From assembly GCA_013822425.1 (NCBI GenBank), contig PNKL01000024.1, forward strand, positions 1 through 35,163: DNA of 35,163 bases, written 5' to 3'. This DNA is from Gemmatimonas sp. (lineage in GTDB: Bacteria; Gemmatimonadota; Gemmatimonadetes; Gemmatimonadales; Gemmatimonadaceae). The number at the start of each line of letters is the position of its first letter. Within the stretch, counting starts at the first letter, position 1. The translations under genes and the position numbers were made by a program. A model generated the notes under the pieces. The model worked only from the letters and a program-made list of their open reading frames with translations. It searched no databases and had not been told where the DNA came from. Shown in pieces: positions 19,562 through 27,197 of this stretch.

Positions 19562-20332
19562 GTGACTGCTCCCGAAAGCAACTGGGCAGCTATCTTCGGA
19601 GCGTCGCTGGAGCGTCCGCTCCGGATATCCGTCGTGATGCCAGCGTACAACGAGGCAGAGGGCATCGGCGACGTGGTGCGCGGGTTCTTGGCGCATCCCA
19701 TGGTCGCAGAAGTGCTCGTCGCTGACAACGGCTCAACCGACGGCACCCCGGATCTCGCGGAACGGGCGGGCGCCCGGGTCGTGCATGAAACGAATCGCGG
19801 TTACGGGTTCGCTTCTCGTCGGGCATTGCTCGAGGCGAGGGAACCGTGGGTGATCATCACGGAGTCGGACAAGACCTTCGACCCCCAAGATGTCACCAAG
19901 TTCGCCGCATATCACGGACAGTTCGACGTGGTCTTTGGCACCCGCACGTCGAAATCGCTGATCTGGAGCGGCGCGAACATGGGGTGGTTTCTCCGCTATG
20001 GGAACTGGGCGGTGGCGAAGTACCTCGAGTACCTGCACAACGGCCCGTGCCTGACCGACGTCGGCTGCACCTATCGCATGCTCAGTCGGGAGGTCATTCG
20101 CGATCTCGCGCAATTCTGGCGGGTCGGCGACAGTAGTTTCTCGCCGGAGCTGATGGTGCTCGCAATTCGACGTGGATGGCGCTGTGTCGAGATCCCGGTC
20201 AACTACGGGAGCCGCGTGGGAACCTCGAAGATTACCGGTTCGAGAGCCCGTGCGTTCAAGCTCGGCTGCCGGATGATCTGGCTGGTCCTGCGCCTCCGTT
20301 TTCGGCGAGTGCCAAAGGCGAGCGCTGCGTGA
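19562..20332 (+). CDS. Family 2 glycosyltransferase, dolichyl-phosphate mannose synthase-like
   Basis: This 256-aa GT-A fold transferase uses a nucleotide sugar and probably a polyprenyl-phosphate acceptor. Its motifs are ISVVMPAYNEAEGIGDVV (22-39), ADNGSTDGT, TNRGYG, and TESDKTFDP at the DxD position (read ESD). LTDVGCTYRML is found in DPM1-like and PpgS-like enzymes. The GTG start is 1 base after the preceding stop, and the TGA overlaps the GTG of the next gene as GTGA. The likely job is to charge a lipid-phosphate sugar donor for the following membrane glycosyltransferase. Confidence 0.85.
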   Translation: MTAPESNWAAIFGASLERPLRISVVMPAYNEAEGIGDVVRGFLAHPMVAEVLVADNGSTDGTPDLAERAGARVVHETNRGYGFASRRALLEAREPWVIITESDKTFDPQDVTKFAAYHGQFDVVFGTRTSKSLIWSGANMGWFLRYGNWAVAKYLEYLHNGPCLTDVGCTYRMLSREVIRDLAQFWRVGDSSFSPELMVLAIRRGWRCVEIPVNYGSRVGTSKITGSRARAFKLGCRMIWLVLRLRFRRVPKASAA

Positions 20333-22086
20333 AACCACCCGCGCTCACGGCGGCGGTCGCTTGGAAGCTGGCGCTTGTCTTCGTGCTGGCGGCTGCGCTC
20401 TTCGCGGGATTCCGGGCCGCGACCCGGCCACTGATCTTCGATGAAGCAGAGTTTCGGCTCGTCGCGAACGGGATCGCCCGGCACGGCATTCCCGTCGCCA
20501 TGTCCGGTGAGGACGCTTTCCTGCGCGGGCTCGCGACAGAGAACCGCCACCTGGGGCTGTGGCATCCGCCGCTCTACACCTATCTCGTCGCCACGGCGTA
20601 CGCGCTGGCCGGGCATGCGAGTGACGCCGCAACCCGCTCGGTGGGCGCATTGCTGAACGTGGCCCTCGTGCTGCTCGTGGCGTGGCTGGCGCGCCGTGCG
20701 CTGCGGTCAGGGGGCGGGACCTCCGAAGCGGCGCGTGTCGCCCCGTGGCTCGCTGCGCTGCTGCTGGCCGGTAATCCGTTCTTCGTGCAGGGGGCGCTGT
20801 TCGCCGACATCGACACGGCCGCGCTGCCGCTGCTGACGACAGCGTGGTGCGGCGTCTTCTGGCTCGCCGACCTGCGAAGCCCCCCGACCCTTCGCGCCTG
20901 GGTGGGAGTCATCGCCGTGAGCGTGCTCTCGTTCTGGGCGAAGCTGACCACGCCGCCGCTGTGTTTCATCGCGCTCGGAGCGTGGTTCGCGGCGAGCCGT
21001 GAGTGGGACGCGCTGCGTCGGCTGGTAGTGGTAGGCGTCGCCGCGACGGTGCTGTTCGCCCTCACCTGGTTGCTCTATGCGTGGGCGGCGAACGTGCCGG
21101 CGGACGTCTTCGTGCGCTACACGTTCATCAATAAGACGCATGTGTACGGTGCGCATCTGAATGTCACGCGCATGACGTTGTCCACGGCGCGCCTGATCCT
21201 GTGGCTCACGCCTGCGCTGGTCGTCCTGTCCCTGGCCAGCATACCGGTCGCATGGAGGCATCGCCGCGAACAGGGCCTCCAGCTCGCGGCGATGGCCGCA
21301 TGCCTCGCGGCGGCCATTGGCGGGGCATACAGCCTCTGGATCGGCGCGGAAGTGACGAAGTACGTCGTGCCGGTGGTCCCGCTGGTCGTCATGGCGACCA
21401 GCATCGCGTTGGCGCCAGAAGCTGCAACGTGGTCGCCGCGCACGCTGGGGGCCATCGCTGTCGCAGCCATCGCGACCGCGGTCTGGCACGGCGTGGTCGC
21501 CGGGGACCTCTTCCTCGTACCACCGACGGCAGATCGCACGCTGGCGTCACGCGACTTCATGCAGCTGCTTCTCGATCCGCGGCTTCGCACATGGGCGACG
21601 GTTCCCTTGCCCGTCGTGCTGGTGCCAATGCTCTGGCGCCTTGTCGGCCAGCAGCGGTGGCACGACGCGCTCGTGCGGGGGGCCTTTGCCGTGATACTGG
21701 GCGGAGGGATGGCCCAGCACCTGATGTCGGCATCCACGCCGTATTCCCCACTCACCTTCAGGCCGCAACCGGATCTTGCCGCTGCCGCGGACACGCTGTC
21801 CGCGCGTTGTGACGGCGCATATGCCGTGGCACAGAAGGAGATCATCGTGCGCCTGAGCCCTGCCCGGTGCATGGCGATTGCCACCGACGGCGGCCCCGGC
21901 GCGATCCTTCACGAAGACAGTCTCGCGGCGCGCATCGACACCGATCCACGGATCCGCTGGGTTCTGTCCGCACGGTCGTACCCCCTGTTCGCGCACGATG
22001 GACCGGTCAGCGGGGTCCTGGCACGCCGGTTCGCGCTGGCCGTCGAGGTCGGGGACTACGTGTTGTTGGAGCGTCGGGTGCCCTAG
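20329..22086 (+). CDS. Polytopic membrane glycosyltransferase (GT39/ArnT-PMT type)
   Basis: This 585-aa protein has about ten or more hydrophobic segments. The first loop carries LIFDEAEF, and a second loop carries LWHPPLYTYL. These are the acidic DEA and HPPL motifs of lipid-phosphate-sugar-dependent GT-C enzymes. The GTG start overlaps the stop of the GT2 gene (GTGA), so translation is coupled. The stop TAG consists of the TA target site plus the first base of IS630-type element A. Excision in silico of all neighbouring ISs still leaves TAG, so the gene is probably full length. It likely transfers the sugar made by the upstream GT2 enzyme onto a surface glycan or lipid. Confidence 0.82.
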   Translation: MKPPALTAAVAWKLALVFVLAAALFAGFRAATRPLIFDEAEFRLVANGIARHGIPVAMSGEDAFLRGLATENRHLGLWHPPLYTYLVATAYALAGHASDAATRSVGALLNVALVLLVAWLARRALRSGGGTSEAARVAPWLAALLLAGNPFFVQGALFADIDTAALPLLTTAWCGVFWLADLRSPPTLRAWVGVIAVSVLSFWAKLTTPPLCFIALGAWFAASREWDALRRLVVVGVAATVLFALTWLLYAWAANVPADVFVRYTFINKTHVYGAHLNVTRMTLSTARLILWLTPALVVLSLASIPVAWRHRREQGLQLAAMAACLAAAIGGAYSLWIGAEVTKYVVPVVPLVVMATSIALAPEAATWSPRTLGAIAVAAIATAVWHGVVAGDLFLVPPTADRTLASRDFMQLLLDPRLRTWATVPLPVVLVPMLWRLVGQQRWHDALVRGAFAVILGGGMAQHLMSASTPYSPLTFRPQPDLAAAADTLSARCDGAYAVAQKEIIVRLSPARCMAIATDGGPGAILHEDSLAARIDTDPRIRWVLSARSYPLFAHDGPVSGVLARRFALAVEVGDYVLLERRVP

Positions 22087-23174
22087 TGTCGCGTCCCGGA
22101 AACAGCTTTACATAATCTCTCGATCTTCTGGAGAATCGAATCGGCCGTCGCAGTCCACACGAAGGGATGGGCGGACGGGTTGTACCTCTTTTCGAATCGG
22201 GTAATCGCGTCGACGAGTTCCTTGACCGAACGGAAGGAGCCGCGCCGAATGGCTTTTTGGGTGACGATGTTGAACCAGATCTCGACCTGATTGAGCCATG
22301 AGGCGTACGTCGGCGTGAAGTGAATCTGGTAGCGCGGCCGGGCCGCGAGCCAGCGCTTGACCTTCGCGTGCTTGTGCGTGGCGTAGTTGTCGACGATCAG
22401 GTGGATGTCGAGGTGGGGCGGCACATTGGCGTCGAGATGATTGAGAAACTGGAGGAACTCCTGATGCCGATGTCTGGGTTTGCACTGGGTCAGCACGGTA
22501 CCGCTGGCGATGTTCAACGCGGCGAAGAGCGTGGTGGTACCATGCCGGATGTAGTTGTGCGTCACGCCTTCGACGTAGCCCAACCCCATGGGCAAGAGCG
22601 GTTGCGTGCGTTCGAGGGCTTGCGTTTGACTCTTTTCATCGACACAGAGCACCAACGCATGGGCCGGCGGCCGGAGATACAATCCGACAATGTCGCGGAC
22701 CTTCTCGACGAAGAACGGATCGGTCGAGAGCTTGAACTGCTTCTGGCGATGCGGCTGCAGGCCGAAGGCCGACCACACGCGCTGCACGGTCGATTTCGAC
22801 AGCTTCGTTTCGGTCGCCATCGTGCGGCAACTCCACTGGGTGCTGCCATCCGTGGGACGCGTCTTGAGCGTCTTGCGAATGAGGCGCGTGATGCGTTCGT
22901 CTTCGATGGTGCGCGGCCGTCCGGGACGCCGTTCATCGTACAACCCCATCAGGCCCTGCCGTCGGAAGCGCTCGCGCCACACGCCCACCGTGGGACGCGT
23001 CACGCCCAACTCATCGGCGACGGTCGTGTTCGGCACGTCGTCGGCACAGCGCAGGACAATCTGCGCCCGCCGCACGAGATCGTGCCCCAGGGTGCGCGAG
23101 TGGGCCAGCGACAGCAGTTCCACCCGCACGTCCGGACTGAGGACCAAGGGTTGCCGCGGTCGTCCACGTGCCAT
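22083..23174 (-). CDS. IS630-family transposase (element A)
   Basis: This 363-aa DDE transposase has an N-terminal winged HTH pair (TVADELGVTRPTVGVWRERF, 51-70) with a GRPR hook at 85-88. Catalytic residues are Asp179 in CVDEKSQTQALER, Asp262 in LIVDNYATHKH, and Glu298 in the conserved TPTYASWLNQVEIWF. It looks intact. The ATG at 23174 has GGGAG upstream; an in-frame upstream extension lacks family similarity. The stop codon TAG is made of the TA target duplication plus a host base, so the element itself supplies no stop. Confidence 0.9.
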   Translation of the reverse strand: MARGRPRQPLVLSPDVRVELLSLAHSRTLGHDLVRRAQIVLRCADDVPNTTVADELGVTRPTVGVWRERFRRQGLMGLYDERRPGRPRTIEDERITRLIRKTLKTRPTDGSTQWSCRTMATETKLSKSTVQRVWSAFGLQPHRQKQFKLSTDPFFVEKVRDIVGLYLRPPAHALVLCVDEKSQTQALERTQPLLPMGLGYVEGVTHNYIRHGTTTLFAALNIASGTVLTQCKPRHRHQEFLQFLNHLDANVPPHLDIHLIVDNYATHKHAKVKRWLAARPRYQIHFTPTYASWLNQVEIWFNIVTQKAIRRGSFRSVKELVDAITRFEKRYNPSAHPFVWTATADSILQKIERLCKAVSGTRH

Positions 23175-23252
23175 GATAGGCTCCCGGTCAGTGAAGACGG
23201 GAGACAAGGTACCAGGGAAAGTGTATTTAGGCAAGGTATTTCAGGGACACTA
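22084..23252 (-). mobile_element. IS630-family element A with TA duplication
   Basis: TA dinucleotides stand at 22084-22085 and 23251-23252, as expected for IS630/Tc1-type insertion. The ends both begin TAGTGTC inward. After that the terminal inverted repeats align only with a 4-base offset (GTCCCGGAAAC against GTCCCTGAAAT). The element is about 1165 bases and holds one transposase reading to its left edge. Confidence 0.8.
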
Positions 23253-23259
23253 CACTGAT

Positions 23260-23589
23260 ATGACTGGGCTGGGGTCAAGGGGTGGTGCTACGAGAGCGCA
23301 TCGGCGAGACCTCTGAGGCACGTGGCGTTGGATGATGCAGTGGCGGTGAGCGGGAGAGCGGAGGCCCCTGGGGCGGCTTCGACGATTGATCCTACTGATA
23401 TACGCCGATTACGCGGTTGCCCGCGCAGCGCGGCAAGAATTGGATTCGTCCGGAGCTGGCTCATTCTAGCTGACACGGATTCCGTCACGGTCTCGACGTA
23501 CCGTATAGTGTCCCCGAGCATGCTCCTCATCGTGCCACAGGCGGCCGTCCGGTCCTCCACGTCACAGGGGTGAAGTCGACCCGTGGTGC
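23260..23589 (-). ncRNA. Candidate IS1111-type guide RNA (bridge/seek RNA) region
   Basis: 330 noncoding bases follow the IS110-type transposase stop up to the subterminal inverted repeat. In IS1111-group elements the target-specifying RNA is encoded here. A strong hairpin (TTGCC...GGCAA, 23417-23436) and an ACGGATTCCGT palindrome at 23475-23485 are visible and could frame guide loops. A weak 90-codon frame crosses the region but has no family match. The location is established for the group; the precise RNA ends are not readable. Confidence 0.4.
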
Positions 23590-24735
23590 TTACGCGGCCG
23601 TACGGACGGGCGCCGTCGCCCGCGGCGGCAGCTCGCGCATCACGGCCCAGAGAAAGCCGACGAGTTCCCGCGCGACGGCGACGACCGCGACCTGCGGGTG
23701 TTTCCGGTACGCGAGGTGTTGATACAGTTTATGCAAGCGATGCTGCGCCTTCCACGCGTGCGCAATGATCGACGGCGGTTGGCCGGCTTGACGGCCCTTG
23801 AGGTGCGGGTTCACCTGCGGCTGGTGGCGATAGCTCCAGGCCACCTGGATCAGCACATGGCGACACTGCGCGTTGCCGGCTTTCGTGATCGACCCTTTGC
23901 GCTCGCGCTCCCCGCTCGAGTCTTCGCGCGAAACGAGCCCCACGTAGGCCATGAGCTGTGTCGGCCGTTCAAACCGTCGCCAATCCACGAGCTCGGTCGC
24001 GAGCACCATGGCGGCCTGGACCTGGATGCCGCGGAAACATTGTAACCAGCCGACCGCCGTCGCCCAGGTCGGGGAGCACGCCAGTAAGGCAATCTGCCGG
24101 TCGAGTTCGTCCCGACGGGTGAGCTTGTATTCCAAGAGCGCGAAATATTCCCGGAAGACCATCGCGTCCTCCCCGGCCAGCGGCGACTGGACCGCGGCCA
24201 ACGTCCGCAGCCAGACCAGATGCTTGGCTCCCCAGTTCTTTCCGGCGCGGTAGACGAAGCCGCGCCGCGCCAGGAACTTGAGAATGTAGTGGCGCGATTT
24301 GAGAATCTCGCGCTGGAAGGTCTCGCGGCAGCGGACGACGTCGCGCACGCGTTCCTCGGCGACAGCGGGGATGCGCACGGGCGTCAGTTCGCCGGCGCGG
24401 TAGAGCCGCGCCAGTGGCACGGCGTCGTACTTGTCATGTTTCCGCTGGACCCCCGGCTGGATGGGGATGAGCGACGGGGCGATCACGTCGCAGGCGTACC
24501 CCCACTCCCGCAGCAGGCGGTACACGACGTAGCCGGCCCCGCTGGCTTCGTAGCACGTGCGGAGGGTTCCCTGTGTGGCCACGCGATCACAGAAACGGCG
24601 GAGCTTCCCCGCGTCGTTCGGCAATCGTTCAACGCGCGTCGGCGCGGCGGCGGCCTGCGGGAGCACGGCAATGGTGATCGACTCCTTGTGCACATCCATG
24701 CCGAGGTAAATAGTATTCGGGAGCGGGGATGACAT
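23590..24735 (-). CDS. IS110-family transposase (DEDD)
   Basis: This 381-aa DEDD transposase/recombinase has an N-terminal RuvC-like domain with the four acidic residues: Asp14 in YLGMDVHKESI, Glu63 in CYEASGAGY, and Asp101 and Asp104 in RKHDKYDAVPLARL. The C-terminal Tnp-20 domain shows YVGLVSREDSSGERERKGS followed by ITKAGNAQCRHVL, containing the SSG motif with the proposed catalytic Ser. The ATG at 24735 is preceded by GGAGGACC. The protein looks complete. Such enzymes use a guide RNA from the element's own end to choose target and donor. Confidence 0.92.
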   Translation of the reverse strand: MSSPLPNTIYLGMDVHKESITIAVLPQAAAAPTRVERLPNDAGKLRRFCDRVATQGTLRTCYEASGAGYVVYRLLREWGYACDVIAPSLIPIQPGVQRKHDKYDAVPLARLYRAGELTPVRIPAVAEERVRDVVRCRETFQREILKSRHYILKFLARRGFVYRAGKNWGAKHLVWLRTLAAVQSPLAGEDAMVFREYFALLEYKLTRRDELDRQIALLACSPTWATAVGWLQCFRGIQVQAAMVLATELVDWRRFERPTQLMAYVGLVSREDSSGERERKGSITKAGNAQCRHVLIQVAWSYRHQPQVNPHLKGRQAGQPPSIIAHAWKAQHRLHKLYQHLAYRKHPQVAVVAVARELVGFLWAVMRELPPRATAPVRTAA

Positions 24736-24858
24736 GGGTTGGTCCTCCACGAAGAGAGTGCGACAGTCCGACACGTCGCATGTGGCGCTGGTGACTCCGG
24801 TGAACACGGGGGAACTAATCCACGTGAACTCGGAGGGCCAGCCCAGTCATAACTCTTC

Positions 24859-26001
24859 TAGTACCTACTTGACATAAAGACCGTTACATGACATCTTCTG
24901 GCTCCTGGATGAAGGAGCGGTGTCATGCGCCATGTTGCGGTGGCGATCAGCCTCGCGCCCGAGGAAGCCGCCGTACTCAATCGGTGGGTGCGCGCTGGCT
25001 GCAGTCCGCAGCGGCAGGTGTTTCGCGCCCGCATCATTTTGGGGGCGGCGGCGGGCGAGGGAACGAACGCCATTGCGGCATCGCTCGGCACGCGGCCCGC
25101 TACGGTGAGCAAGTGGCGCACGCGGTTCGCCACGCGGCGGCTGGCGGGTCTCGCGGATGCGGCCCGCCCGGGGAAGCCGCGGCGGTACACCGAGACGACG
25201 GAGCGCCGGATCCTGGCGCAGCTCGATGAAGCGCCGCCGTCGGGCTACGCGCAATGGAACGGTCGATTGGTGGCGCGCGCGCTGGGGGATGTCTCCGCCG
25301 ACCAGGTGTGGACGATCTTGCGGAAGCACAAGATCGCCCTGGCGCGGCGGCGGAGTTGGTGCATCAGTACCGATCCCGAGTTCGCGCGGAAGGCCGCCGA
25401 CATCGTCGCCCTCTATCTGCACCCCCCGGAGAACGCCCTGGTGATTTCGGTGGACGAGAAGCCCCATATCCAGGCCCTGGAGCGGGCCCAAGGCTACCTG
25501 AAGCTCCCGAACGGGCGGGCGCTCACGGGGTTTGCCCATGAATACAAACGGCATGGGACGTCGACCCTCTTCGCCGCCCTGGCCGTCGCCACGGGGCAGG
25601 TCATCGCCGGACACTACCATCGCCGCCGGCGCGTCGAGTTCCTGGACTTCCTGAATCGCGTGGTCGCGGCCTATCCCGACCAGGAGTTGCACGTCATCCT
25701 GGACAACCTGAGCACCCACAAGCCGAAGCACGATCGCTGGCTCTCGCGGCACCCGCACGTCCACCTGCACTACACGCCCACCCACGCCAGCTGGCTGAAC
25801 CTCATCGAAGTCTGGTTCAGCATCCTCACGCGCGCCGCGCTCACCGGGGCGAGCTTCACGAGCGTGCGCCTGCTGCGGGACGCGATTGACCGTTTCCTCG
25901 AGGCGTGGAAGACGGAGGCCCACCCGTTCGAGTGGACCAAGGAAGTCGTGCATCAAGTCCCGGTCAAGAAACGTTACGCTGATTTACACAAGTAGGTACT
26001 A
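24859..26001 (+). mobile_element. IS630-family element B with 13-bp terminal repeats
   Basis: The element starts TAGTACCTACTTG at 24859 and ends with the exact reverse complement at 25989-26001. TA is at both edges (24859-24860 and 26000-26001). The inner length is 1139 bases. Its right TA is also the left TA of element C, so the two elements abut without any host DNA. Confidence 0.88.
24925..25995 (+). CDS. IS630-family transposase (element B)
   Basis: This 356-aa DDE transposase appears intact. Its HTH region is AIAASLGTRPATVSKWRTRF (49-68) and GKPRRY is the hook. Catalytic residues are Asp177 (ISVDEKPHIQALER), Asp260 (VILDNLSTHKPK) and Glu295 (TPTHASWLNLIEVWF). AAGGAG lies 8 bases upstream of the ATG. 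The stop TAG lies inside the right terminal repeat. It is clearly different in sequence from the transposases of elements A and C, so the three IS630 copies are separate types, not duplicates. Confidence 0.92.
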   Translation: MRHVAVAISLAPEEAAVLNRWVRAGCSPQRQVFRARIILGAAAGEGTNAIAASLGTRPATVSKWRTRFATRRLAGLADAARPGKPRRYTETTERRILAQLDEAPPSGYAQWNGRLVARALGDVSADQVWTILRKHKIALARRRSWCISTDPEFARKAADIVALYLHPPENALVISVDEKPHIQALERAQGYLKLPNGRALTGFAHEYKRHGTSTLFAALAVATGQVIAGHYHRRRRVEFLDFLNRVVAAYPDQELHVILDNLSTHKPKHDRWLSRHPHVHLHYTPTHASWLNLIEVWFSILTRAALTGASFTSVRLLRDAIDRFLEAWKTEAHPFEWTKEVVHQVPVKKRYADLHK

Positions 26002-27197
26002 GGTCTCCGACCGTCTGAATAGTACCACAGTGCAGGTGACGTGGGCGATCCGGGAATCGTCCTGATAGTATGCCACGTCACGCCAAGCCGTTTCGTTTGC
26101 GTCCGCGCGACCGGACGCAGTTGCAGGGGATGTTGCACCGTGGGGTCCAGCCGGTCCGGGTGGTGCTCCGCGTGTTGGCGTTGCTCCACTTGGACCGCGG
26201 CGTGCTGGCCCCGGAGGTGGCGCGCACCGTGGACCTGACCCCGGCCGCGATTCGACGGATCGCCCGGCGGTACCAGGCGGGCGGCGTGGCGCGGGCGGTG
26301 TTCGATGCGCCACGCCCGGGCGCCGCTGAAGTGCTGACGACGCTGGACAAGCAACGCATCATCGCGATGGCCTGCACGGCCCCGCCCCCCGGCGCGGCGC
26401 GCTGGACCGTCCGGCTGATTGCGGACGAGGCGGTGAAGCGCCACGTCGTGCCTCGCGTGGGCCGCGAGACGATCCGCATCCTGCTGCAAAGCCACGACCT
26501 GAAGCCGTGGCGGGAAAAAAATGTGGTGCGTGGCCGAGTTGACCCCGGACTATATCGCCAAGATGGAAGACGTGCTGGCCGTCTACGAACGGCCGTACGA
26601 TCCCAAGGAACCCGTGGTCTGTTTTGACGAGAAGCCCGTCTCGCTTCACGCGGACAAGCGCCCGCCGCACCCCGCCCGGCCGGGCCACGTGGCCAAACGC
26701 GATACCGAGTATGAGCGCTGTGGGACCGCCAATATCTTCGGCATCGTGGAGCCCAAAGCGGGGCGGCACTTCACCGTGGCGACCCCCGACCGCTCCGGCT
26801 TCCAGGTTGCGGTCGCCCTACGGAACCTGGTGGCCGCGTACCCCACGGTCCGCACCATTCATCTGGTCCTCGACAATCTGAACACGCACGGCGAGGCGAC
26901 GCTGATCAAACACCTCGGCCGCCGTGCAGCGCGCCAGGTGTGACGACGCCTCTCGGTGCACTACACCCCAACGCACGGGAGTTAGTTGAACCAGGCCGAG
27001 ATCGAACTCAGCTTGGTCACCCGGCAGTGTCTCGGGAAGCAGCGTATTCCCGAGTTGACCGCCTTGCAGTCCCATGTGGGGGCCTGGAATCGCACGGTCA
27101 ATCGGCGAAAGACGCGCATCAACTGGCGCTTTACCCGCAAGGACGCGCGGCGCAAATTCTCGTACACCACGAACGTTTCTAAACGGTCGGAGACCTA
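26000..27197 (+). mobile_element. IS630-family element C, decayed
   Basis: TAGGTCTCCGACCGTCT at 26000-26016 is matched inverted at 27181-27197 with one difference. TA is at 26000-26001 and 27196-27197. The inner length is 1194 bases. The transposase inside carries one frameshift and two stop codons, so the element can move only with help in trans. Confidence 0.88.

Follow-up and report, generated by a model that had tools for sequence, protein, structure and literature searches.

A candidate bridge RNA with target and donor guides in the tail of an IS1111-type element inserted into an IS630 terminal repeat in Gemmatimonas sp.

The stretch of DNA analysed here, referred to as the window, comprises 35,163 nucleotides of Gemmatimonas sp. 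(contig PNKL01000024.1, assembly GCA_013822425.1) and contains an insertion sequence (IS) of the IS1111 type, in which a DEDD transposase gene is followed by a long noncoding tail. We conclude, with a probability of roughly 0.87, that this tail corresponds to a bridge RNA or seekRNA that guides the transposase to both target and donor DNA, the target in the window being the terminal repeat of an IS630 copy. The RNA of the tail thus very probably tells the enzyme where to insert. SeekRNAs have been described in IS1111/IS110 elements by Siddiquee et al. (PMC11187229), bridge RNAs in IS110/IS1111 elements by Durrant et al. (PMC11208160), and handshake guides in the paper on the IS621 structure (PMC11208158). 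The system is therefore of a known kind; what is new is the IS630 target and the evidence that natural covariation provides for donor guides in this group. In the mechanism that we propose, an RNA of about 200 nt would be encoded by the tail, in the direction of the transposase gene, and would have both a target loop and a donor loop. In the target loop, guide 1 would pair immediately to the right of the insertion point with the top strand, and guide 2 immediately to the left of it with the bottom strand; the DEDD transposase would join the circle and the target by way of the guide pairings; the target in the window would be CT|A-GTGTAGTGTCCC. Of this picture, the architecture, the fold, the covariation and the order of insertion are demonstrated here; transcription of the RNA, its binding by the enzyme, circle formation and strand exchange would follow by analogy with ISEc11 and IS621.

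The whole element spans positions 23257-24859 on the minus strand, as judged from its repeat pair and from comparison of its ends with those of relatives. A repeat search identified perfect subterminal inverted repeats of 13 bp at 23260-23272 (right) and 24838-24850 (left), listed by the search itself as 14 bp at 100% (23259-23272/24838-24851), in agreement with the 11-13 bp, near perfect repeats of the IS1111 family. End comparison places the right terminal extension, ATC on the minus strand, at 23257-23259 and the left one (AGAAGAGTT) at 24851-24859, giving 9 bp left and 3 bp right against an IS1111 pattern of 7 and 3, with a boundary deduced from the flanks; the relatives have 7 bp on the left. 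The transposase gene, recognised from the list of open reading frames (ORFs), Pfam and NCBIfam, occupies 23590-24735 (minus strand) and begins at a conserved ATG, upstream of which the listed ORF (23590-24807) starts with a GTG at 24807. Its product reaches the thresholds of Pfam DEDD_Tnp_IS110 and of the C-terminal Transposase_20, a pair that does not separate IS1111 from IS110, scores 192 bits with NCBIfam transpos_IS110 (cutoff 140), and aligns weakly to IS621 (E 0.013). As in the IS1111 family generally, a long noncoding region lies downstream of this gene. The first-pass annotation had described this tail (23260-23589) as adjoining the transposase stop and ending at the subterminal repeat, and had proposed it as a guide RNA for target and donor. 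The first statement holds and the second is supported by the covariation and compensatory structure described below, with the corrections that the RNA lies on the minus strand and that the right end reaches 3 bp past the repeat.

The RNA was analysed by comparison with relatives. Scanning the contigs of genomes yielded 43 loci. Matches at E 1e-60 or better are present in 28 of 395 genomes of the phylum, and family searches at E 1e-100 gave matches in 12 of 179 and 6 of 121 genomes, some of them shared between searches. In total, 58 loci were examined (52 after dropping six duplicates, plus 6). Both ends could be placed in 35 of them, the window included, the repeat pair being picked by eye where several were listed; the other 23 were excluded because an end was lost, unrecognised or at a contig edge, or because the locus was a duplicate (L068 and L074, among these 23, are listed with their right end only). 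After near-identical RNAs were collapsed, 31 non-redundant elements remained, mostly from Gemmatimonadota.

These 31 elements have a common RNA fold with compensatory changes. Across its 19 base pairs, 94.7% of the 589 cells are paired, compared to 32 to 49% in slid versions, and changes on both sides of a pair occur in 53 cells versus 14.2 in shuffles. In the window, the conserved RNA, our bridge RNA or seekRNA candidate, lies at 23351-23558 (minus strand; structure, and a match to the model built here, R1, with E 9.3e-48, the window being in the training set). It holds more than the two hairpins noticed initially, and folded alone has a z of -2.38. Model R1 also detects the RNA in ISSfr2 of Sinorhizobium (NZ_CP023065.1; E 3.9e-22), which is not among the 31, whose transposase is 40.7% identical, and which likewise has a repeat pair (10 bp) and a 3' tail; its guides and flanks differ from those of the window element.

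Four short segments, spread over the two loops of the RNA, show covariation in a single register with the element's own right flank (RF), left flank (LF), right end (RE) and left end (LE). All four lie on the minus strand. Guide 1, the right target guide, is at 23507-23514 in the family register; guide 2, the left target guide, is at 23468-23473, next to possible handshake bases AGAA (23464-23467). The donor guides are D2, to the left end (23436-23441), and D1, to the right end (23397-23402), the latter forming with the core AG and a possible handshake base the segment 23394-23402. In an unbiased scan, each variable RNA column was set against each variable column of the flanks and ends (5136 tests). 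The top signals fell on the diagonals that were expected, with complementarity of guide 1 to RF+2 to RF+6 and of D2 to LE+4, and identity of guide 2 with LF-2 and of D1 with RE-2. Off-diagonal column pairs with z above 4 were also present, probably caused by relatedness. Swapping the flanks among the 31 elements gave 143.6 pairs for guide 1 against the 203 observed (z 9.2, and 7.3 within target class), and z values of 4.3 for guide 2, 8.1 for D1 and 6.1 for D2. When the register was moved by 1 to 3 bases, the signals disappeared for guide 1 (z no higher than 1.8), guide 2 (no higher than 1.0) and D1 (no higher than 1.3). It should be noted that the register first used for D2, one base off, gave an overall z of -0.1 and that the one suggested by the scan was then adopted, so that the D2 signal is partly post hoc. 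Signals for handshake bases (guide 2 with LE+3 and LE+4, z 5.3; D1 with RF+3, z 6.4 overall and 3.1 within class) come from few clades and are only suggestive.

The donor guides bear on an alternative view, in which the functional molecule is a seekRNA of about 80 nt that matches the target only, the second loop belongs to a precursor or serves processing, and the protein reads the ends through the subterminal repeats. This view may be supported by ISEc11, for which an 82-nt seekRNA with target matches only is described as sufficient for movement (PMC11187229). However, both donor guides covary with the ends of their own element, and in three lineages of the 31 with an altered right extension (AGC in L062, ACG in L059, AAC in L071) D1 is altered identically. 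The donor loop is moreover placed between conserved helices 4 and 5, although helix 4 hardly varies and the covariation therefore says little about it. We regard the target-only view as improbable. The second loop appears to contain guides to both donor ends, as indicated by a covariation from which relatedness is not fully removed. Likewise, order and covariation together point to the arrangement of IS1111 seekRNA elements, in which the RNA segment matching the top strand precedes the one matching the bottom strand (PMC11187229).

Model R1 finds the RNA in 45 of 394 genomes of the class, many of which are sources of the training set, and finds a second, decayed copy in the genome of the window itself. 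From these matches 27 stretches were taken; one shared its guide and flank with L062 and was dropped, leaving 26. With a relaxed rule for the right end (n=17), guide 1 fits its own flank with p=0.00065; in the scaffold-anchored subset (n=12) the value is p=0.022, and p=0.074 for RF+3 to +8. The training set gives stronger support than these further copies, several of which are decayed; the model also misplaced some guides.

The order of insertion can be read from the right junction. The IS630 copy targeted in its terminal repeat occupies 22086-23255 (minus strand), and its TA is split, with the A at 23256. IS630 relatives end in C-TA-GTGTNNTGTCCC or variants thereof, CTA-GTGTAGTGTCCCG being shared by four copies in a single genome. 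Outside the right end of the IS1111-type element, by contrast, the sequence begins A-GTGTAGTGTCCCTGA, with the C of the element in front of it; the TA is retained at the far end of the IS630, and the missing T is found to the left of the element. The element therefore lies exactly between the T and the A of the IS630 target site (CT|AGTGTAGTGTCCC in insertion-point notation) and was inserted after the IS630, into its terminal repeat. The split site also supports the earlier proposal of an IS630 junction around TA as the target. We rejected the reverse order: had the IS630 arrived second, its TA would be missing, because a C precedes its A. In L059, a relative with a transposase 61% identical, the insertion point is the same one within another element, which is 163 bp long, is bounded by perfect 24-bp terminal repeats and is by its ends an IS630-type miniature inverted-repeat transposable element (MITE), and guide 1 pairs at 8 of 8 positions.

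Several observations weigh against our reading. Shared ancestry stays in the flank permutation, D2 retains a z of 2.2 at shift +2, and L057 and L060 have one common guide with different flanks, forming 3 and 5 of 8 pairs. Among the further copies, the first, stricter rule for the right end (n=13) gave only p=0.022 for guide 1 and p=0.053 for RF+3 to +8, and L155 has a right end ATT facing a D1 of ATC. The search with RNA models that had been recommended at the outset was of no help, since Rfam gave no match for the window at gathering scores, nor for 23200-24920 up to E=5; R1, the model made here, detects the RNA as described above. In the window copy itself, the left extension is 9 bp instead of 7, guide 1 pairs at 6 of 8 positions (5 contiguous) in the family register, and the pairing, with G.U counted, does not stand out among the 31.

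The loop-flank matches predicted by the first-pass annotation are present in the window on the right and only short on the left (CTAGAA). The best contiguous pairing to the right flank covers 15 bases with 2 G.U (23503-23517 on the minus strand against 23241-23255) and contains guide 1. No 20-mer among 4000 drawn at random from elsewhere in the window reached 15 (best 14, once); an earlier control with a narrower exclusion zone, which kept 20-mers starting at or before 23230, gave 2 of 1886 at 15 or more. This match is displaced five bases from the family register and would use bases of helix 3; it is possible because AGTGT is repeated in the IS630 end. Either the family register or the shifted one may be the one that works. 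The family register, with its 5 contiguous pairs, also agrees with the possibility that the guide is real and the IS630 end is not its proper target, the insertion being off-target or the guide being directed to sites of the form CT|AGTGTCCC: its three outer bases agree with AGTGTCCC, a sequence absent from the insertion point, and the exact junction of right end and IS630 was found in 1 of 395 genomes, the window itself (the pattern also occurs in 11 viral-contig stretches, left unread). Against this, L059 has full pairing at the same point of an IS630-type MITE, and the mean run over 21 IS630 ends is highest for the window guide (8.2 against a median of 5.5), although at least one of these ends (L094) was cut wrongly. 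We consider an improper target rather unlikely. A search for the uninterrupted site by way of the upstream gene matched 1 of 11 genomes of the genus, namely the genome of the window.

The 90-codon frame at 23288-23560, whose coding conservation would have spoken against an RNA, is open, and tblastn gives similar stretches in relatives, which raises the possibility that it is a gene and the conservation is coding. However, the frame has no Pfam match and is not kept in the relatives, where aligned lengths differ modulo 3 and stops occur in varying frames, and the paired positions change together. A coding origin is hence extremely unlikely.

The element resembles ISEc11, ISKpn4, ISPst6 and ISPa11 (PMC11187229) in its 3' noncoding region, subterminal repeats and asymmetric extensions. 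It differs from the IS1111 seekRNA elements described in that paper in its longer transposase (about 380 versus 330-350 aa, the range given there for the family), in its IS630 terminal repeat target, and in its visible donor segments, target matches being what that account describes. As in the IS621 bridge RNA and the predicted IS1111 ones, there is a target and a donor loop with two guides each, a core dinucleotide and possible handshake bases (PMC11208160, PMC11208158); the differences from these are that the core reads AG in the top strand and CT in the opposite one, and that the RNA is encoded at the right end. On balance, we favour the view that these elements form an IS1111-type group with a strand-mirrored bridge RNA of four guides plus handshake, whose target loop was reprogrammed many times in nature, at least twice onto IS630-type terminal repeats, which would let one mobile element seek out another's ends. 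The natural guide/flank pairs are a source of targeting rules. For IS1111-type donor guides, which were earlier predicted by inspecting few elements (PMC11208160), natural covariation evidence is now available, whereas for ISEc11 a short target-only RNA sufficed (PMC11187229). The importance of the donor loop thereby becomes directly testable.

No literature on IS1111-type elements at IS630 ends was found at the level of titles and abstract beginnings, with thin coverage of subscription journals and preprints. The IS1111-family elements IS4321 and IS5075 reportedly enter the terminal repeats of Tn21-family transposons, according to the title of a 2003 paper. The window element likewise enters another mobile element's terminal repeat, but that of an IS630-type host (TA target site) and not of a Tn21-type one. 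Many relatives (right flanks of L006, L050, L062, L077 and L082) adjoin AACG flanks that by eye resemble integron attC sites, which some IS1111 seekRNA elements target (PMC11187229); testing the flanks for attC by ungapped repeats yielded little, the resemblance being one of gapped repeats.

Just inside the right end, TTGACC (23273-23278, minus strand), read from the sequence, is a possible -35 box of a circle junction promoter; TTGAC is kept near the right end in most relatives. At the left junction of the element, two IS630-type copies are nested at one TA (24859-27197): a later insertion at the C-TA-G of that junction (24861-25999, plus strand) and a third IS630-like copy with a broken reading frame at the same TA (26002-27195, plus strand). 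On the other side, the stop codon of a 636-aa ORF (20176-22086) overlaps the TA of the IS630 insertion (22080-22088), so that the end of this ORF may stem from that insertion. The element at L174 (2439-2601) is 163 bp long, has perfect 24-bp terminal repeats that begin AGTGTAGTGTCGC and is, judged by its ends, a MITE of the IS630 type. Finally, the genome of the window contains a solitary left end of the same element type (L004, 1501-1543) with no transposase match.
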